IMG/VR virus record: IMGVR_UViG_3300042401_000283
Coordinates: 1 to 20,334 of that record
Length of the DNA: 20,334 nt
DNA from: a virus
Direction: 5' to 3' (one strand)
Position 1 is the stretch's first letter. Every line of letters begins with the position of its first letter. Of the stretch, positions 298-18,352 are shown piece after piece. The position numbers and the translations under genes are program-made. The notes under the pieces were generated by a model. The model was not told where the DNA came from. It was given only the letters and a program-made list of their open reading frames with translations, and did not search any database.

Positions 298-2126
298 TGA
301 AAAGAAAAATAAACAATAAAGGTGGAAGTATTTCAATAGTTAATTTATCCACTTACACAAGTCCTAAAATAGTAGAATTAAAGACACAAGAATGGGTATC
401 TTACGGGGTGGATAATAACTATTTTGGATACTTACAAGATAGAATAAATGGCTCACCTACAAATAATGCTATTGTAAACGGTATTAGTCAAATGATTTAC
501 GGTAAAGGATTAGACGCTACCGATGCAGAACTTAAACCAGAAGATTATGCTCAAGCGATGTTATTGTTTGATAATGATACAACAGAAAGACTTTGCTTTG
601 ATTTAAAAGCGATGGGTCAGTGTGCGGTACAAGTTGTTTATTCAATCGATAAAAGCCGAATAGTAGAATGCAACCACTTTCCTATTGAAACATTAAGAAG
701 CGGTAAATGCAATGAAGATGGCGAGATTGAGGCTTACTATTATGCAGACGATTGGACAAAGATAAACCGTTCAAATAAACCACTTGAAATACCCGCTTTT
801 GGATTTGGAAACGGTGGCGAAGAAATATTGTATATAAAACCTTACAAAACTGGTTTCTACTTTTATAGCCCCGTTGACAGTCAAGGAGGTTTGCAATACT
901 GCGAACTTGAAGAAGAAATAAGCAACTACCATTTAAACAACATAATGAACGGTCTGGCTCCTTCGATGTTAATCAATTTTTTAAACGGTACACCGACAGA
1001 GGACGAACAAAGACAGATTGAAAGAAATATACAAAATAAATTTGGAGGTACTTCAAATGCGGGTAAATTCATTTTAAACTTTTCAGATGGTTCAGATAGT
1101 GCTGCAACTATTACACCAGTACAATTAAGTGACGCACATAACCAGTATCAATTCCTTTCAGATGAGAGCATGAAAAAGATAATGGTTTCACATAGGGTTA
1201 TTAGTCCGATGCTATTAGGAATTAAAGACAATACTGGATTCGGTAACAATGCAGAAGAACTACAAACTGCAACTATCTTAATGGACAATACAGTTATTAG
1301 ACCATTTCAAAATTTACTAATTAAAAACTTCGATAAGATATTAGCGGTAAACGGTATTAGTTTAAATCTTTACTTTAAGACTTTACAACCTTTGGATAAT
1401 GAAAACGATTTAACGGTACTTGAAGAAATTAATCCAATAATCAAAAAGATAAACGATTTACCTACTGATTTAGCTAATAAAGCTATTGAGTCATTAACAA
1501 CTGATGAGATTCGTTCTTTGATTGGATTAAGTCCTACTATTGCAGAAATAGTACCGACAACAGATTTATCACAATACGGTCAAGAAATAGATTTAAACGT
1601 TTATGAATTGGTAAGTTCTGAACCAGTAGACTATGAAAACGAGGCAAGTTTAGACGACCAAATGAATAAGCTAAACGCTACTTATTTAGCAAGTGCTTCA
1701 ACTGGAACAGCAAGAACTAAAAGCCCATCGGAACAAGATAGCCCTTTATACATTACACGTTACAGATATGGCGGTAATCCTTCACCAGAACGTGAGTTTT
1801 GTAAAAAAATGATGAGTGCTAATAAACTATACCGAAAAGAAGATATAATGGAAATGAGTCAAAGAACAGTTAATCCTGGATTTGGTATGAGTCCAGACCC
1901 TAATGCTCCTTATGATATATTTTTATGGAAGGGCGGTGGCAAGCTTTCAGATGAATTTCCTAAAGGAACTTGTAAGCATTTTTGGATGCGTGAAATGTAC
2001 AGAAAAATAGGAAGCGGTAAGAATACAGCAGCACAACCTTCAAGTCCAGCAGATGTAAGAAAAGCGGGTGAAATAGCACCGACAAATGATAACCGAGTTT
2101 ACCAAGCTCCACACGATATGAAATAA
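297..2126 (+). CDS. Phage portal protein
   Basis: A 609-residue protein of the size expected for portal proteins, which form the dodecameric ring at the capsid vertex through which DNA is packaged and ejected. The N-terminal part has the usual opening: a region around GVDNNYFGYLQDR, then a segment with NAIVNGISQMIYGKGL near residues 57-72. The middle carries a helix and loop region (EEEISNYHLNNIMNGLAPSM, then FGGTSNAGKF) and SHRVISPMLLGI, which is typical of portal clip and wing regions in Bacteroidota phages. After about residue 440 there is an extra C-terminal domain with Cys, Trp and His (GTCKHFWMREMYRK) and a disordered Pro/Ala/Ser tail. The connector-like gene follows 2 nt later. Assignment rests on pattern recognition; the family is fairly sure, the role of the C-terminal domain is not. 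Confidence 0.85.
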   Translation: MKRKINNKGGSISIVNLSTYTSPKIVELKTQEWVSYGVDNNYFGYLQDRINGSPTNNAIVNGISQMIYGKGLDATDAELKPEDYAQAMLLFDNDTTERLCFDLKAMGQCAVQVVYSIDKSRIVECNHFPIETLRSGKCNEDGEIEAYYYADDWTKINRSNKPLEIPAFGFGNGGEEILYIKPYKTGFYFYSPVDSQGGLQYCELEEEISNYHLNNIMNGLAPSMLINFLNGTPTEDEQRQIERNIQNKFGGTSNAGKFILNFSDGSDSAATITPVQLSDAHNQYQFLSDESMKKIMVSHRVISPMLLGIKDNTGFGNNAEELQTATILMDNTVIRPFQNLLIKNFDKILAVNGISLNLYFKTLQPLDNENDLTVLEEINPIIKKINDLPTDLANKAIESLTTDEIRSLIGLSPTIAEIVPTTDLSQYGQEIDLNVYELVSSEPVDYENEASLDDQMNKLNATYLASASTGTARTKSPSEQDSPLYITRYRYGGNPSPEREFCKKMMSANKLYRKEDIMEMSQRTVNPGFGMSPDPNAPYDIFLWKGGGKLSDEFPKGTCKHFWMREMYRKIGSGKNTAAQPSSPADVRKAGEIAPTNDNRVYQAPHDMK

Positions 2127-2128
2127 TT

Positions 2129-2632
2129 ATGGCTACAACGCTTTTTATAACACCAAAAGACTTAAAATCAAACTCAATCCTTAATGGGAATGTTGACACA
2201 GATTTGTTTATTAACTTTATCAAGATTGCCCAACAAATGCACGTGCAAAATTATTTGGGTACAAAACTGTATGATGCTATTACTACCAAAATAACTACTT
2301 CAACGCTTACGGGTGATTATTTAGACTTGGTTACGGATTACGTTCAGCCTATGCTTATACATTTTTCTCTCATTGATTACCTTCCCTTCGCAAATTATCA
2401 AATTCGAAACGGAGGAGTCTTCAAGCATCGTTCAGAAAACAGTGAAAGCACTACAAAGGACGAATTAGACATATTAGTTCAGAAGCACAGAACCTTTGCA
2501 GACTTTTACGCTAAAAGGTTTGTTGACTACATGGCTATAAGTGCAAATACTCTATTTCCAGAATATTGGACAAATAGTAACAACGATATGTTCCCAGACA
2601 CTAATCCTAATCCAACTGGTTGGGTATTGTAA
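2129..2632 (+). CDS. Head-tail connector/adaptor-like protein (gp6-like)
   Basis: A 167-residue protein starting 2 nt after the portal gene. Its layout is that of head-tail adaptor proteins: an N-terminal stretch naming a sequence position (FITPKDLKSNS), then amphipathic helices (DTDLFINFIKIAQQMHVQNYLG, split here by the limit on quoting, roughly residues 23-45), a second helical bundle around residues 60-85, a small glycine loop (RNGGVF) and a final helix with an aromatic-rich tail. Such proteins form the ring between portal and tail. Gene order (portal then connector) supports this. No catalytic motif is seen. It may correspond to the small DUF proteins annotated next to portals in Bacteroidota phages, which I cannot verify here. 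Confidence 0.6.
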   Translation: MATTLFITPKDLKSNSILNGNVDTDLFINFIKIAQQMHVQNYLGTKLYDAITTKITTSTLTGDYLDLVTDYVQPMLIHFSLIDYLPFANYQIRNGGVFKHRSENSESTTKDELDILVQKHRTFADFYAKRFVDYMAISANTLFPEYWTNSNNDMFPDTNPNPTGWVL

Positions 2633-2684
2633 ATAAGCCTATTTAAGACACTATTTTTATTAATTGATAAGAATATATATTAAA

Positions 2685-2804
2685 ATGAAATTAAACAAGC
2701 AGAACGAACCAAAAGAACCTAAAAAGGTTAAAGTATATAAAATTAAAACAACTAACATTCAAAAAATGATTGAATATTTAAAAAAGCAAAACAATGACAC
2801 CTAA
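2685..2804 (+). CDS. Small basic protein, 39 aa, unknown
   Basis: The frame ATG 2685 to TAA 2802-2804 encodes 39 residues, very rich in Lys (EPKEPKK-type N-terminus, then KIKTTNIQKMIEYLKKQ). There is no membrane segment. It lies 52 nt after the connector gene and overlaps the next gene (start 2794) by 11 bases, which fits translational coupling and argues that it is a real gene. It could be a small nucleic-acid-binding or virion-associated peptide; no family is recognised. Confidence 0.5.
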   Translation: MKLNKQNEPKEPKKVKVYKIKTTNIQKMIEYLKKQNNDT

Positions 2805-2961
2805 AAATATAGAAGTATATGCAGTGAATGGCACTATTTTAGGTTTATCATTTACAAGTATTGAAAGCACAATGAAATTACTATTGCTAGCAATGTCAAT
2901 AGTATACACTGGAATAATGATTTATAAACTTTTAACAAAAAAAGAAGATGCAAATAAGTAA
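2794..2961 (+). CDS. Holin-like single-membrane-segment protein, 55 aa
   Basis: The frame ATG 2794 to TAA 2959-2961 encodes 55 residues. After a short polar N-terminus it has a hydrophobic segment (about residues 27-47, LLLLAMSIVYTGIMIYKLL) followed by a lysine-rich tail (TKKEDANK). This is the form of a small class III-like holin or another phage membrane protein. It overlaps the endolysin start (2948) by 14 bases and the upstream basic gene by 11. Placement just before a peptidoglycan peptidase is the main reason for calling it holin-like; the sequence alone would only support a membrane protein. Confidence 0.6.
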   Translation: MTPKNIEVYAVNGTILGLSFTSIESTMKLLLLAMSIVYTGIMIYKLLTKKEDANK

Positions 2962-3400
2962 ACATTTGAGTTTTGAAGAATGCACAAGATCGGGTACTGC
3001 CGATAAATTAGGGATAATTAACAATAATCCTAATGATTCAGTTATTGAAAATATGAAACTATTGGCAGAAAAGGTATTCGAGCCAATTAGGGAGCATTTT
3101 GGTAAGCCAATTCATGTGAGTAGTATGTTTAGAGGTTTGCCATTAAATCAAGCGGTAAAAGGTTCTATTACAAGTCAGCATTGTTCTGGTCAAGCTATGG
3201 ACATTGATATGGATTCAAAAGGTAAACCAACTAATAAAGAAGTATTTGATTTTATCAAAGCTAATTTAGAATTTGATCAGTTAATAAATGAATTTGATTA
3301 TTCTTGGATTCATGTATCTTATGTAAAAGGAAAAAACAGAAAACAAGTATTAAAAGCTAAAAAAGTAAACGGGAGAACAACTTATGAAACAATTAAATAA
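2948..3400 (+). CDS. M15-family peptidase endolysin
   Basis: A 150-residue protein of the peptidase M15A type (D-alanyl-D-alanine carboxypeptidase / L-Ala-D-Glu peptidase fold), a common phage endolysin that cuts peptide bridges of peptidoglycan at the end of infection. The zinc-site motif is visible as SQHCSGQAMDID, with His78 and Asp85 as likely zinc ligands, and WIHVSY near the C-terminus, with His122 as the third ligand. The acidic residue (Glu115) just before the last motif fits the catalytic base. Length matches stand-alone M15 endolysins, without a separate wall-binding domain. There is no signal peptide, so export would depend on the holin-like protein encoded just upstream. Confidence 0.9.
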   Translation: MQISKHLSFEECTRSGTADKLGIINNNPNDSVIENMKLLAEKVFEPIREHFGKPIHVSSMFRGLPLNQAVKGSITSQHCSGQAMDIDMDSKGKPTNKEVFDFIKANLEFDQLINEFDYSWIHVSYVKGKNRKQVLKAKKVNGRTTYETIK

Positions 3401-3584
3401 ATATTTAGATATGCCAAATTTAGACAAGATTCCACAACCGATTCAAGAAGTATTAGACGCAGCTGCTTATGAGTATTCAGTAAGTCCTGCAACAACAAAC
3501 GCAGGAAGGATATTAAGATTTATCAGTAGATTCTTTAAGCCAACAACTATAATTAAAATGTTTTCGCATAAATTAACAAAATAA
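3384..3584 (+). CDS. Small unknown protein, 66 aa, end of the lysis/late operon
   Basis: Starts inside the last codons of the endolysin gene (17-nt overlap) and ends with TAA at 3582-3584, right before a T-run and a promoter. The N-terminal half is acidic and helical (PQPIQEVLDAAAYEYSVS); the C-terminal half is basic and amphipathic (RILRFISRFFKPTTIIKMF), which could touch membrane or nucleic acid. No signal peptide, lipobox or clear transmembrane segment is present, so a spanin role is not supported. Function unknown. Confidence 0.65.
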   Translation: MKQLNKYLDMPNLDKIPQPIQEVLDAAAYEYSVSPATTNAGRILRFISRFFKPTTIIKMFSHKLTK

Positions 3585-3616
3585 TTTTTTTTATTAGAAA
3601 AACATTTATATCTTTG
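3585..3616 (+). promoter_or_regulatory. Bacteroidota-type promoter for the structured RNA
   Basis: The -7 element TATCTTTG lies at 3609-3616 and fits the TAnnTTTG consensus exactly. The -33 region is an 8-T run (3585-3592), a weak match to TTTG. The 12-base block TTTATATCTTTG is identical to the one at the 5817-5824 promoter. Transcription would start near 3619-3623. Confidence 0.65.
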
Positions 3617-3711
3617 GGGCTCATCAATTGGACTGAACCTATTGATTTAGGTTTTGACTAATTATAAAAGCCCAACCCTAATAAGATTCAGTCCCTTATT
3701 AGGGTTTTTTT
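3617..3711 (+). ncRNA. Compact structured small RNA, unknown class
   Basis: About 90 nt bounded by an exact TAnnTTTG promoter element and a perfect intrinsic terminator, with no open frame of note. A long hairpin is visible: 3626-3641 pairs with 3648-3663 (A-A-T-T-G-G ... AACCTA against TAGGTT ... AATT) with two mismatches and a 6-nt loop. GGGCT (3617-3621) can pair with AGCCC (3669-3673), although the start site may cut off its first bases. GGACTGAA (3630-3637) is perfectly complementary to TTCAGTCC (3687-3694), which fills the terminator loop, so an 8-bp kissing or switching interaction is possible. I recognise no known RNA family. It may act as a regulatory RNA, or as a leader whose folding controls termination ahead of the HNH region. 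Confidence 0.6.
3674..3711 (+). terminator. Strong intrinsic terminator
   Basis: The perfect stem CCCTAATAAG (3676-3685) / CTTATTAGGG (3695-3704) has a 9-nt loop and seven Ts (3705-3711). AA at 3674-3675 pairs with the first two Ts. It ends the small RNA and would also stop read-through from the late/lysis operon. Confidence 0.9.
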
Positions 3712-3948
3712 ATGAATTATAATTTAGAAAACATATTCGGTTAGATTTAAACGAGATTAGCTACTGCCAAAAGCTATTCAACGGTAAACTTATTATGTAG
3801 ATAATTTGGTTCGTGTAAATCATCTAATAAGATGAAAGAAATTCGGGGGGCTTTTTTCTTTTATCTTTTCTTTTTCTTTGACTTGTTTTTCTTTTCTATT
3901 TTCTTTTTGAAAGCAGTGAGATATTAAATAAATATAAAATAAATAAAT
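3712..3948 (+). other. Gene-free stretch with hairpins and a pyrimidine-rich tract
   Basis: No credible gene was found. Two hairpins are visible: TAGCT (3758-3762) / AGCTA (3772-3776) with a 9-nt loop, and TAGATAATTT (3798-3807) / AAATCATCTA (3817-3826) with one mismatch and a 9-nt loop. A run of six Gs (3844-3849 region) is followed by about 60 bases that are almost all T and C (about 3852-3909). The A-rich leader of the HNH gene follows. This may be a 5' untranslated region for that gene. No TAnnTTTG promoter is seen in it. Confidence 0.5.
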
Positions 3949-15232: not shown

Positions 15233-15607
15233 ATGAATAAAGCAAAATATATATGTGACTCCATAAATAAAATCTATGGAGTTAACATATACGAAAACAA
15301 AAGAACACAAGATTTAGTAGATATTCGCTCAATGGCTTGTTATATACTACACAAAGACTTAAAACTTACGTTACATAAGACAAAGGATTATTTTAATTCA
15401 AGAGGCAAAAAAATGACTCATTGCACTGTATTACATAATTTAAAAGTATTTGAACAAGCTAGAAAAATAAAACCAGAACTAGAAGCAGTTAGGGATAGTT
15501 TAATGACAAAGTTTGATCCGAAGTATTTACTATTAAAAAGAATACAAAACATCGAAGACATATCCAAAATAGAACAGATAACAAACTGCGTAAACCATTA
15601 TGAATAA
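15233..15607 (+). CDS. DnaA domain IV-like DNA-binding protein
   Basis: 124 residues. The central part (about 28-75) resembles the C-terminal DNA-binding domain of DnaA: VDIRSMACYILHKDLKLTLH, then KTKDYFNSRGKKMTHCTVLH, where MTHCTVLH corresponds to the DnaA signature RDHTTVLH with the TVLH part intact. It lacks the DnaA ATPase domain, so it could recognise DnaA boxes in the phage or host, as an origin-binding or regulatory factor, not a full initiator. The start is 1 nt after the methyltransferase stop and the end overlaps the ParB-like gene by 8 bases. Confidence 0.7.
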   Translation: MNKAKYICDSINKIYGVNIYENKRTQDLVDIRSMACYILHKDLKLTLHKTKDYFNSRGKKMTHCTVLHNLKVFEQARKIKPELEAVRDSLMTKFDPKYLLLKRIQNIEDISKIEQITNCVNHYE

Positions 15608-16133
15608 AACAGTAAAAATATCAGAAGTAAAAGTCAATCCAAACAATCCAAGATTAATAAAGGATGACAAGTTTAAAAAATTGGTCAATTCGATAAAAGA
15701 GTTTCCAGAGATGCTAAACATCCGACCTATCGTAGTCAATAAAGATATGGTCATACTGGGTGGTAATATGAGATACAAAGCTTGTCTTGAAGCTGGAATA
15801 AAAGAAGTCCCAGTTATCATCACAGACCTTTCAGAAGAGCAACAAAAAGAATTCTTGATTAAAGACAATGTCTCTGGTGGAGAGTGGGATTGGGATATGT
15901 TAGCTAATGAATGGAATACAGATGAGTTACAAGAATGGGGATTGGATTTACCTATTTATGATTTAGAGCCAAGTTATGAGGATTTAATAGGAGAGGAGAA
16001 AAATAAACCGGCTACAATGAAAATAACTTTTAAAACTGTTGAACAATTACAAGAAGCCGAAAACGATATCCAAGAATTAATTGACAGAAAATATAATGGT
16101 GCATTTTATTCAGTAAGTGCTGGCGAGATATGA
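15600..16133 (+). CDS. ParB-like (ParB/Srx fold) protein
   Basis: 177 residues. The first about 100 residues are the ParB N-terminal fold: KISEVKVNPNNPRLI, IRPIVVNKD, VILGGNMRYKACLEAGIKEV (the conserved nucleotide-binding G-x-x-R type region) and PVIITDL. A C-terminal region (about 125-177) carries an alpha-beta segment. Many phage ParB-like proteins are next to DNA-modification genes and may act as nucleotide-dependent DNA clamps or enzymes; the role here is inferred from context between methyltransferase and Mom-like protein. The stop overlaps the next start (ATGA). Confidence 0.8.
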   Translation: MNKTVKISEVKVNPNNPRLIKDDKFKKLVNSIKEFPEMLNIRPIVVNKDMVILGGNMRYKACLEAGIKEVPVIITDLSEEQQKEFLIKDNVSGGEWDWDMLANEWNTDELQEWGLDLPIYDLEPSYEDLIGEEKNKPATMKITFKTVEQLQEAENDIQELIDRKYNGAFYSVSAGEI

Positions 16134-16765
16134 GATTAGAAAAAGCATCTTATAAAGCAATTAAATATGCTTGTTTAAATTTTCACTATTCTAAAACGGT
16201 TCCAGCCTCTTCAATTTCTTATTCAGTTTTTAATGATAAAAATGAATGGTGCGGTATAGTTTCTTTTTGTTATCCATCTGGAGTAATGTTAGGAAAACAA
16301 TTTAATTTAGTTCAAGGTCAATTTATAGAATTAAATAGAATGGCTTTAAACGGAAAACAAACTTCAACAAGTAAAGTCTTATCTATTGCAATTAAATTAT
16401 TTAAAAAACATAACTCAACTGTAAAATTATTAATTTCATACTCAGATAAAGGAGAAAATCATTTTGGCACAATTTATCAAGCTACTAATTGGATATTTGT
16501 AGGAGAAAACGAAAGTAGTGGAAAAGATTATTTTTATAAAGGAAAATGGAGACACGACAGAACTTTAAACGAATATCCAAAAGATTTTTTATCAAAATTA
16601 GAAACACGAAAAAGAAGTGGAAAACGAAAATATTTATATCCTATTGATAAAAGTTTAATACCTTTATGCAAATCATTAAGTAAACCTTATCCAAAAAAAA
16701 TAACCTTACAAGATAGCAAGGTTATTAATGAGAGCGATATAATAGATTCGAACTTTACTTCTTAA
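16130..16765 (+). CDS. mom: Mom-like DNA-adenine hypermodification protein
   Basis: 211 residues. Its pattern is that of the Mom family: HYSKTVPASSISYSVFNDK, WCGIVSFCYPSG, FIELNRMALN, LLISYSDKGENHFGTIYQAT followed by NWIFVGENES, and RHDRTLNEYP. Mu Mom, a GNAT-fold protein, adds a carbamoylmethyl (glycinamide) group to N6 of adenine in phage DNA, which blocks many restriction enzymes. This gene follows the ParB-like gene (ATGA overlap) and precedes the terminase genes, so modified DNA would be made just before packaging. The last about 11 codons lie opposite the tRNA-like gene on the - strand, and the - strand terminator sits within the coding region. The C-terminus is basic. Catalytic residues are not claimed. 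Confidence 0.8.
   Translation: MRLEKASYKAIKYACLNFHYSKTVPASSISYSVFNDKNEWCGIVSFCYPSGVMLGKQFNLVQGQFIELNRMALNGKQTSTSKVLSIAIKLFKKHNSTVKLLISYSDKGENHFGTIYQATNWIFVGENESSGKDYFYKGKWRHDRTLNEYPKDFLSKLETRKRSGKRKYLYPIDKSLIPLCKSLSKPYPKKITLQDSKVINESDIIDSNFTS
16693..16726 (-). terminator. Intrinsic terminator of the tRNA-like unit (- strand)
   Basis: Read on the - strand, AATAACCTT (16726-16718) pairs perfectly with AAGGTTATT (16707-16699) around a 10-nt loop, followed by six Ts (16698-16693) after those already in the stem. On the + strand there is no T-run, so it works only for the - strand. It begins 6 nt after the tRNA-like 3' end. Confidence 0.8.
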
Positions 16766-16803
16766 CTGGAATGTTAAACGTGCAACCATTACACTAATAT
16801 CGC
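16733..16803 (-). tRNA. tRNA-Gly(UCC)-like RNA gene with irregular T stem
   Basis: 71 nt without encoded CCA. The 7-bp acceptor GCGATAT/ATATCGC is perfect; U8 and A14, the D stem GTGT/GCAC, loop AATGGTT with the conserved GG, and T loop TTCGAAT are all present. The anticodon arm TTAAC/GTTAA encloses ATTCCA, so the anticodon reads UCC (glycine, decoding GGA); the loop has 6 nt when the stem is fully paired, with one extra base before it. The glycine identity elements known from E. coli are met: G1-C72, C2-G71, G3-C70, C35, C36 and U73. The T stem TAAAG/CTATT is poor, with A-A at 51-63 and T-T at 49-65. The unit has its own promoter and terminator. It might be an active tRNA, a degraded one, or a specialised glycine carrier. 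Confidence 0.7.
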
Positions 16804-16813
16804 ATTTGTTTGA

Positions 16814-16843
16814 CAAAGATAAATAAAAAAATAACATATACAA
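16814..16843 (-). promoter_or_regulatory. Bacteroidota-type promoter of the tRNA-like gene (- strand)
   Basis: On the - strand, TTG (16843-16841), a 19-nt spacer, then TATCTTTG (16821-16814). Transcription would start near 16811, leaving an about 8-nt leader before the tRNA-like 5' end at 16803. The element lies in the 5' leader of the small terminase gene. Confidence 0.75.
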
Positions 16844-16845
16844 CA

Positions 16846-17214
16846 ATGAAACCAAAAGAGCAACACGAAACAGAAATACTAAAGCTAATAGTAAAGCATA
16901 AGATAATGAAGATTAATCATATCTTTCAACACTATACAGACTTACAACATTCACAGTTTTATAATTTAGGATTGGATAAATCGGAGAGTATTAAAGAAGC
17001 AATAGCAACTAATAAGAGCAAAGCAGTTTCTTATATGCTTAACAAGTGGGTAGGTTCAGATAATGCAACTTTACAAATATCAGCGTTTAAAGTTTTATGC
17101 GAAGATGAAGACAGAAAGAAACTATCAATGCAGTTCGTTGAATCAGAAAACACGCACCAAGTTAGAAAGTTTGAAGTTGAGATAATAGACAACAACCCCG
17201 ATGCCGAAAGTTAA
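16846..17214 (+). CDS. terS: Small terminase subunit
   Basis: 122 residues from ATG 16846 (the longer frame from TTG 16810 is unlikely because the extra part lies in the tRNA promoter). The N-terminal half is helical with a DNA-binding-like helix-turn-helix region (ILKLIVKHKIMKINHIFQHY, then SQFYNLGLDKSESIKEAIAT), followed by a basic/acidic C-terminal part (CEDEDRKKLSMQFVES) for assembly and TerL contact. Assigned mainly from position: it overlaps the large terminase start by 14 bases. TerS recognises the phage packaging site. Sequence is highly divergent, as is usual for TerS. Confidence 0.75.
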   Translation: MKPKEQHETEILKLIVKHKIMKINHIFQHYTDLQHSQFYNLGLDKSESIKEAIATNKSKAVSYMLNKWVGSDNATLQISAFKVLCEDEDRKKLSMQFVESENTHQVRKFEVEIIDNNPDAES

Positions 17215-18352
17215 TAAAGTATTCAAACATTTAGAAAAGTCAGACAAAAGAATAACAATAGAGCAAGGAGGAACCAGAAGCGGTAAAACTTATAATATAT
17301 TACTTTGGTTAATCTTTGGTTATGCTTTTAAGAATACTGGCAAGACAATAACTATTTGCAGAAAAACATATCCCGCACTTCGTTCCAGTTCGATGCGGGA
17401 TTTTTTCGATATATTAAAAGAGCATGATATATACGAAGAAGCAGAACACAACAAAAGCAATTCAGAATATAGACTTGAAGGCAATCTTTTTGAGTTTATA
17501 AGTTTAGACCAGCCACAAAAGGTTAGAGGTCGTAAAAGAGATGTATTATATATCAACGAAGCGAATGAGTTATACTTTGAAGATTGGCAGCAATTAATAT
17601 TTAGAACAACCGAGAAGGCAATTTTAGACTACAATCCTTCCGATGAGTTCCATTTCATTTATGAGAAGATAAAACCAAGAGAAGACGCAGACTTTTACAT
17701 TACAACTTACAAAGACAATCCATTCTTATCAGACGAGATAATAAGCGAAATAGAGCGTTTAAAGAACGTTGATGACAACTACTGGAAAATATATGGACTC
17801 GGACAAATTGGTTCATCACAAGCCCTTATATTTAGAATTAACGAGTGCGTTAGCATTCCAGAAGACGCAAAGTTTTTATCTTATGGAATGGACTTTGGTT
17901 TCACGAATGATCCAACTACATTGGTGGCTATTTATCAGCAAGGCGATAACATTTATTTAAAAGAGTTATTATACCAAACAGGATTAACCAATAGAGATAT
18001 AAACGACAAACTAAAACTAAACGAAGTAGAACGTAAGGAAGTATTTGCAGACTCAGCAGAGCCAAAATCAATAGAGGAACTTTATAGAATGGGTTGGAAT
18101 ATTAAACCAGCTACAAAAGGACAAGGAAGCGTTAACATAGGAATTGATATGATGAAAAGATACAACCTTTACGTTACAAAAGACAGCGTTAATATGATAA
18201 AAGAATTTAGAAACTATAAATGGCAAGAAGATAAGAATGGAAATATTTTAAACGTACCAGTTGATATGTTCAACCATACGATTGATGCAATTAGATACGG
18301 ATTATATGATAAACTAGCCAGACCGAATTACGGTAAATATGCAGTCAGATAA
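17201..18352 (+). CDS. terL: Large terminase subunit (packaging ATPase-nuclease)
   Basis: 383 residues of PBSX/Terminase_3-like type. The ATPase domain has Walker A QGGTRSGKT (22-30), the conserved TYPALRSSSMRDFFD segment (56-70) and Walker B VLYINEANE (115-123; Asp replaced by Asn-Glu-Ala as in this family). The RNase H-like nuclease domain starts with SYGMDFGFTNDPTT (Asp231), followed by VFADSAEPKS (about 283-292) and a final acidic position near DAIRYGLYD (about 364-372). TerL drives ATP-dependent DNA packaging and cuts concatemers. Length is slightly short but complete. A hairpin plus T-run inside the coding region is annotated separately. Confidence 0.95.
   Translation: MPKVNKVFKHLEKSDKRITIEQGGTRSGKTYNILLWLIFGYAFKNTGKTITICRKTYPALRSSSMRDFFDILKEHDIYEEAEHNKSNSEYRLEGNLFEFISLDQPQKVRGRKRDVLYINEANELYFEDWQQLIFRTTEKAILDYNPSDEFHFIYEKIKPREDADFYITTYKDNPFLSDEIISEIERLKNVDDNYWKIYGLGQIGSSQALIFRINECVSIPEDAKFLSYGMDFGFTNDPTTLVAIYQQGDNIYLKELLYQTGLTNRDINDKLKLNEVERKEVFADSAEPKSIEELYRMGWNIKPATKGQGSVNIGIDMMKRYNLYVTKDSVNMIKEFRNYKWQEDKNGNILNVPVDMFNHTIDAIRYGLYDKLARPNYGKYAVR
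17370..17406 (+). terminator. Terminator-like hairpin inside terL
   Basis: ATCCCGCA (17370-17377) pairs perfectly with TGCGGGAT (17394-17401) around a 16-nt loop, followed by six Ts (17401-17406). It encodes the conserved YPALRSSSMRDFF segment, so it could be chance from codon constraints. It is a GC-rich island in an otherwise AT-rich region, which makes partial termination or an mRNA structure plausible. Confidence 0.4.

Follow-up and report, generated by a model that had tools for sequence, protein, structure and literature searches.

A degenerate tRNA-Gly-like RNA accompanies phage mom genes and is a candidate glycine donor for DNA modification

Staphylococci use non-proteinogenic tRNA-Gly to feed FemXAB, a GNAT-fold aminoacyl transferase, for the cell wall, and these tRNAs are full cloverleafs expressed from host genes which are not fused to the gene of the enzyme. 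GNAT-fold enzymes that take amino acids from aminoacyl-tRNA are established more widely, and one review describes VlmA, DhpH-C and PacB as combining this fold with an aminoacyl-tRNA donor in natural-product pathways (PMC12945691); these enzymes differ from the phage DNA modification protein Mom in having the double-GNAT FemX architecture, small-molecule substrates and ordinary host tRNAs, and a term search of that review returned no mention of DNA modification or phage. The product made by phage Mu is α-N-(purin-6-yl)glycinamide (Swinton 1983, as cited in PMC3874153), whose composition is that of adenine with a single glycyl residue (C2H3NO) added. Mu differs from the locus described here in carrying no tRNA, and its donor is not established in the literature we searched, where glycyl-CoA has been suggested. 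That search, with most subscription papers and any paper on the Mu Mom crystal structure 8BV8 lying outside it, found no report of a tRNA for Mom.

The window (the whole stretch of DNA that was analysed, a virus record of 20,334 nt) has a mom-family GNAT gene at 16130–16765 on the plus strand. The initial annotation had called this 211-aa ORF Mom-like, and this was borne out by the Pfam profile PF25680 (E = 9.7e-33, with 114 bits compared to a curated cut-off of 27.1, covering residues 5–189), by PHROG 1384 (phrog_1384, 'Mom-like DNA modification protein', E = 6.5e-45) and by an AlphaFold2 model (pLDDT 89) which matches 8BV8 with a Z of 19.3 and an rmsd of 3.0 over 179 aligned residues. The next fold matches listed are acetyl-CoA GNATs with a Z of about 12. 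FemABX/FemX proteins are absent among the fold matches listed, an absence that excludes nothing, and Mom is a single GNAT domain while FemABX-type transferases have a double GNAT fold with a tRNA-binding helix. Besides family and fold, the window and Mu proteins share invariant residues (E67, L68, R70, S103, D106, G113, Y116 and A118 in window numbering), including the serine which is mutated in the inactive 8BV8 protein (S81, aligned with Mu S124). This serine sits in the loop where acetyltransferases hold the CoA pyrophosphate, and by inspection Mom has x-S-x-S-K/R where the acetyl-CoA loop Q/R-x-x-G-x-G/A is expected, with the usual glycines missing.

A ParB-like nuclease-domain gene lies at 15600–16133 on the plus strand (PF02195, E = 1.6e-11) and overlaps the start of mom by 4 nt, with a DNA methylase and a helicase also upstream, and mom appears to be followed by a terminase large subunit gene at 17201–18352. 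According to annotated neighbours, a ParB-like gene also adjoins mom in phiEf11 and in Arthrobacter and Microbacterium phages.

A tRNA-Gly-like RNA is found on the minus strand at 16733–16803, measuring 71 nt to the discriminator U73 at 16733; C74 at 16732 is also conserved and CCA is not encoded. ARAGORN places a tRNA at 16803–16732 (minus strand) and leaves its identity unnamed ('tc') because the anticodon loop has 6 nt. The Rfam tRNA model gave no match above the gathering cut-off in the window, the folding of the single sequence was weak and not significant (z of −1.75), and blastn of the RNA against phages produced no useful relative. That there is a tRNA-Gly-like RNA here, as first proposed from the window alone, is nonetheless confirmed by the ARAGORN call, by the family model and the association with mom described below, and decisively by covariation in the family. 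Within the cloverleaf, the 5′ strand of the acceptor stem (GCGATAT, 16797–16803) pairs with 16740–16734 (GCGAUAU/AUAUCGC), and the D arm at 16780–16794 (GUGU-AAUGGUU-GCAC) keeps G18G19 and has covariation-supported pairs. The anticodon arm at 16761–16778 has a 6-bp stem closed by C-G with covariation in helix 3, and a 6-nt loop, AUUCCA, which holds C35 and C36 at 16769 and 16768; the T arm at 16741–16756 has 4 bp, a bulged A (16743) in the 3′ strand and AA/UU in place of GG/CC. The glycyl-tRNA synthetase identity positions listed in the initial annotation (G1-C72, C2-G71, G3-C70, C35, C36 and U73) are all present. The T stem and the anticodon arm had to be corrected to the forms given here, and it is in the lack of a 5-bp T stem and of a 7-nt anticodon loop that the RNA departs from canonical elongator tRNA-Gly. 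The elbow (G18G19 with T54T55C56) is kept in the window and absent from about a third of the relatives.

A lack of association between mom and tRNA-Gly in other genomes had been named at the outset as evidence that would count against a joint function, and our searches of other genomes did not refute it in this way. Five Mom-driven searches gave 374 loci with sequence available 3′ of Mom, and 342 of these carry the RNA at the end of the gene, on one strand or the other. Some of these loci are overlapping contigs or repeated records, and therefore it is the clustered count that matters: 41 of the 43 Mom clusters formed at 60% identity carry the RNA. ARAGORN alone was insufficient for these searches, as in the first set of 60 viral contigs fetched with the window Mom it found tRNAs in about a quarter (all Gly or truncated 'tc', and all at the mom 3′ end), and in the remaining loci the RNA was detected only with a covariance model built on 41 sequences of bulged form. 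The family alignment has 98.3% of its cells paired and a covariation of 0.725 compared to 0.216 in shuffles, and the structure of the RNA is under selection. With the model, the RNA was located at the mom 3′ end in 57/60 of these window-like loci, and of the three exceptions two are cut by contig ends and one (L057) is a true absence. The RNA was likewise present in 78/80 loci of the Mu-like type II Mom set, 76/77 of the type I set, 76/80 of the Arthrobacter-like set and 52/80 of the phiEf11-like set. The background for the descriptor was two matches in approximately 679 kb of the loci; our first, strict descriptor had missed copies with degenerate T loops.

The association also holds in reverse. 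When all viral contigs were scanned for a T arm with a bulged A plus GCG/CGC ends, ignoring mom, Mom was found to adjoin the RNA in all but seven of at least 120 contigs matched, and in six of the seven the RNA is no more than about 250 bases from the end of the stretch, with the last (L170) being a chance match. A control pattern without the bulge matched 18 contigs with ordinary tRNAs or by chance, and Mom was present in none of them (0/18). Over 84,980 species genomes the bulged pattern identified six genuine RNAs, all six in Bacteroidota (Larkinella knui, Taibaiella lutea, a Saprospiraceae, a Chitinophagales and two other Bacteroidetes) and all six beside Mom. The RNA is tied to mom as a family-wide rule. 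Two further kinds of match in the species genomes were rejected: a seventh strong match to the model, in Roseomonas (L231), belongs to another kind of tRNA and comes without Mom, and pattern matches in Thermoplasmata look like repeated unrelated sequence with scores far below those of the true RNAs. It should be noted that a random sample of 395 Bacteroidota genomes contained two Mom genes above the cut-off, and so genome-wide counts add little.

Among Bacteroidota-type phages, two diverged Mom subfamilies show the pairing near-universally. It extends to other phages as well, with an unannotated RNA overlapping the end of mom in Arthrobacter phage BarretLemon, an annotated tRNA-Gly on the strand opposite mom in Microbacterium phage MenE, and an annotated tRNA-Gly with the bulged A beside mom in Salinibacter phage B2_17; forms of the RNA with no D arm also pair with mom. 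An adjacent tRNA was not found at the mom genes of Mu, Listeria A511 and LP-114, Salmonella, Proteus, Pseudomonas, ICP1, Enterococcus and Mycobacterium Rohr, and such an RNA was not found elsewhere in the genomes of Mu or most other tRNA-less Mom phages (Listeria A511 does have other tRNA matches, at genomic sites distant from mom). Searches of approximately 26 Firmicutes-type prophage Mom loci did not find the RNA, and we reject the suggestion that these loci hide an undetected copy. It is therefore not obligatory for a Mom phage to have a dedicated tRNA, since Mu and several others lack one; these would need to draw on host Gly-tRNA or some other donor.

We note three further features of these loci. 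Two Mom subfamilies that are only 23–27% identical share the bulged-A tRNA (L063, L067, L069, L091 and L156 compared to the window), which suggests exchange of either partner. In Firmicutes prophages without the tRNA, mom is followed by a hairpin and a shared CACGCGYGGATTTYCGA stretch (L510 at 3107–3230 and L517 at 3098–3220), which is perhaps a cos site. Enterococcus phiEf11 and relatives have another lone tRNA-like gene 1–2 kb upstream of mom (L199 at 2747–2819 and L510 at 1301–1367), and in phiEf11 this is Asn.

To assess conservation we compared 130 distinct RNAs drawn from the three Mom-driven sets of Bacteroidota type. All of them (130/130) have C35-C36 and the bulged A of the T stem, and 127/130 have G1C2G3/C70G71C72 (GCG..CGC) with U73, while the wobble base 34 varies (U in 112, A in 14 and C in four). 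The D-loop GG and T-loop TTC normally kiss, and in this set they are lost jointly, with both present in 77 RNAs, neither in 43 and one only in ten (counts uncorrected for relatedness). We considered whether the bulged A might be an artefact of the search pattern and rejected this, since it is also seen in 130/130 of the RNAs located through mom, though the model had been trained on bulged forms; the same model also detects unbulged relatives in actinophages, where copies have a normal 5-bp T stem, and the bulge is therefore not universal. Many copies in the other Mom sets have no D stem, encode CCA and have a 5-nt anticodon loop, NNCCN, and these forms retain the CC and U73. Mitochondrial tRNAs without D arms have similarly lost the D arm and elbow contacts, and they still decode in specialised ribosomes; the D-armless Mom RNAs differ from them in being phage-borne, for glycine only, and with a varying wobble base. 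Examples at the mom 3′ end are the RNAs of L435, L460, L465, L476, L485 and L546, which are approximately 67–70 nt long with encoded CCA, a 5-nt anticodon loop and T loops such as GGCAGCA and TGCAACA.

U73 is nearly confined to tRNA-Gly among bacterial tRNAs, and it protects the glycylated form against the deacylase DTD (PMC6097841). With the CC, acceptor stem and U73 kept, the wobble base varied and the elbow and D arm lost, the family has kept the marks of glycylation and shed features of translation. As judged from these sequences, selection would maintain what the synthetase reads and what retains glycine, and would release what the ribosome and EF-Tu need.

The RNA of the window has its own transcription signals. 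A promoter-like site on the minus strand at 16814–16846 has TTGTTG (16846–16841), a 19-nt gap and TATCTTTG (16821–16814), the last of which fits the TAnnTTTG type that is the Bacteroidota promoter consensus. The promoter first proposed at 16843–16814 is better read as a promoter-like site of this Bacteroidota type, with TATCTTTG as its element. The terminator claimed at 16726–16693 corresponds to an intrinsic terminator-like hairpin found on the minus strand at 16726–16699 (one found compared to 0.1 expected). Among antisense relatives of the RNA, TAnnTTTG occurs within the 45 nt upstream in 29/42 compared to 3.8 expected, and a terminator is present in 37/42. Sense copies from the same sets overlap the 3′ end of mom and have terminators in 6/95, which fits co-transcription with mom. 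The TAnnTTTG motif is also seen in the 45 nt upstream of sense copies in the type I and II Mom sets (39/95 compared to approximately one expected); here it falls in Mom codons and may reflect coding constraint. Antisense placement is not a defining trait, as the RNA occurs on both strands relative to mom and in most phages overlaps the end of mom in the sense direction. These differences in orientation and placement indicate that the RNA has moved more than once, changing strand and position without separating from mom, and the RNA overlap in the window involves only the predicted-disordered tail of the ORF (pLDDT < 50), since the Mom domain stops near residue 189 (16696).

This arrangement bears on the possibility that the RNA is a tRNA-like element, cut by RNase P/Z, which serves the processing or stability of the mom mRNA, or that it regulates mom as an antisense RNA. 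The sense overlap in most phages would suit the former and the position of the window RNA, antisense to the mom tail, would suit the latter, and there is a precedent for RNA-based control in the regulation of Mu mom by Com (PMC6483171). However, both orientations exist and the antisense copies have a promoter and terminator of their own, and neither role requires invariant C35-C36 or U73 amid the decay of the D and T arms. We regard this explanation as improbable.

An ordinary phage tRNA-Gly that aids the translation of glycine codons and lies near mom by chance is very unlikely. ARAGORN does name many copies as tRNA-Gly(ucc), phages often carry tRNAs, and some actinophage copies are near-normal in look, but the linkage to mom is exclusive in both directions and the RNA is usually the sole tRNA of the locus. 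A decoding function is also hard to square with the ACC anticodons, the anticodon loops of 5–6 nt, the bulge in the T stem, the joint disappearance of G18G19 and TTC, and the absence of a D arm in some forms. Host tRNA-Gly genes, taken from bacteria of the same kinds, show none of these defects: their T stems and elbows are normal and their anticodon loops have 7 nt.

We consider it very probable, on the sequence evidence, that the RNA serves Mom as a dedicated donor of glycine, a glycyl-tRNA that does not decode. The suggestion in the initial annotation that a phage tRNA might supply Mom with glycine is supported by the association with mom, and by a glycylation identity that is kept while decoding features are shed, a pattern more in keeping with a dedicated donor than with a tRNA for translation. 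Host glycyl-tRNA synthetase would read G1-C72, C2-G71, G3-C70, U73 and C35-C36 and load the RNA with glycine. Given its abnormal elbow, T stem and anticodon loop, the charged RNA is expected to bind EF-Tu and the ribosome poorly, and would form a pool reserved for Mom. Mom, which has a GNAT fold, would then capture the charged RNA and pass the glycyl group to adenine of the phage DNA. Simple aminoacyl transfer yields an isomer of the known product and so a rearrangement must be assumed; one possibility is that glycine is first joined to N6, after which an intramolecular (Smiles-type) rearrangement would move the glycine nitrogen onto C6. DNA modified in this way would resist host restriction. 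As proposed, the system resembles that of the staphylococci in joining a glycine tRNA exempt from translation to a GNAT-fold transferase, with DNA rather than the cell wall as the substrate. No DNA modification system described in the literature we searched joins an enzyme to an aminoacyl-tRNA of its own.

The RNA might instead be a scaffold or activator of Mom, with the chemistry drawn from another donor such as glycyl-CoA. Mom has been described as moving an acyl group from an acyl-CoA such as glycyl-CoA (PMC7824862), its fold neighbours bind acetyl-CoA, and Mu works without a phage tRNA; however, the acetyl-CoA loop is not visible in Mom by inspection, and the retained glycylation identity makes little sense in a scaffold, and we hold this to be highly unlikely. 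Least credible is that the RNA replaces tRNA-Gly, or acts as a decoy for it, when host defences attack tRNA-Gly, as does the toxSAS FaRel2, which selects tRNA-Gly and tRNA-Thr via the acceptor stem (PMC11559606), for while the acceptor stem is the most conserved part of the RNA, a counter-defence RNA need not adjoin Mom in 41/43 clusters nor retain C35-C36, and a replacement tRNA would have to decode.

A glycyl-tRNA donor may not be confined to Mom. A second, unrelated phage gene family, in which a DAM-like domain is fused to a GNAT domain (PF22555 with PF22559; phrog_7858), has a tRNA-Gly-like RNA in all three of the diverse members examined. In a Pseudomonadota genome (L603), a D-armless RNA at 2062–2126 lies approximately 480 bases upstream of the fusion gene (2606–3913), which is followed by a ParB-like gene. 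In Mycobacterium phage Megabear (L605), an annotated tRNA-Gly at 1893–1964 overlaps the start of the gene (1947–3335), and in Gordonia phage Clawz (L606) an unannotated RNA at 1823–1894 (E = 1e-4), ending in CGCUCCA, precedes the gene at 2001–3326. The Megabear and Clawz proteins have 27–28% identity with the Pseudomonadota relative, and the ParB-like neighbour is found in both L603 and L606. The family resembles Mom in its GNAT domain, ParB-like neighbour and adjacent tRNA-Gly-like RNA, and differs in that Pfam does not detect it as Mom and its tRNA is located upstream. A small CxxC zinc-finger ORF directly before the L603 RNA (approximately 1772–2032, or 1211–1471 in L598) is reminiscent of Mu Com. 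We think it likely that the use of tRNA-borne amino acids is a general phage strategy for DNA modification, in which at least two GNAT enzyme families, Mom and DAM-like–GNAT, each evolved with a dedicated, non-decoding tRNA-Gly, reduced in some cases to a D-armless mini-RNA that would only be charged and unloaded onto DNA.

The occurrence of a degenerate tRNA-Gly at the end of mom in hundreds of mom-carrying phages points to an unrecognised use of tRNA, and the pairing offers an explanation for puzzling lone tRNA-Gly genes in phages. The covariance model can find more such RNAs, and the family provides a natural set of minimal RNAs revealing what glycyl-tRNA synthetase needs. The product of Mom has been known since 1983 and its donor has only been assumed in the literature we searched, and a dedicated tRNA makes the question testable. 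If the proposal is true, then DNA joins the list of things modified by charged tRNAs.
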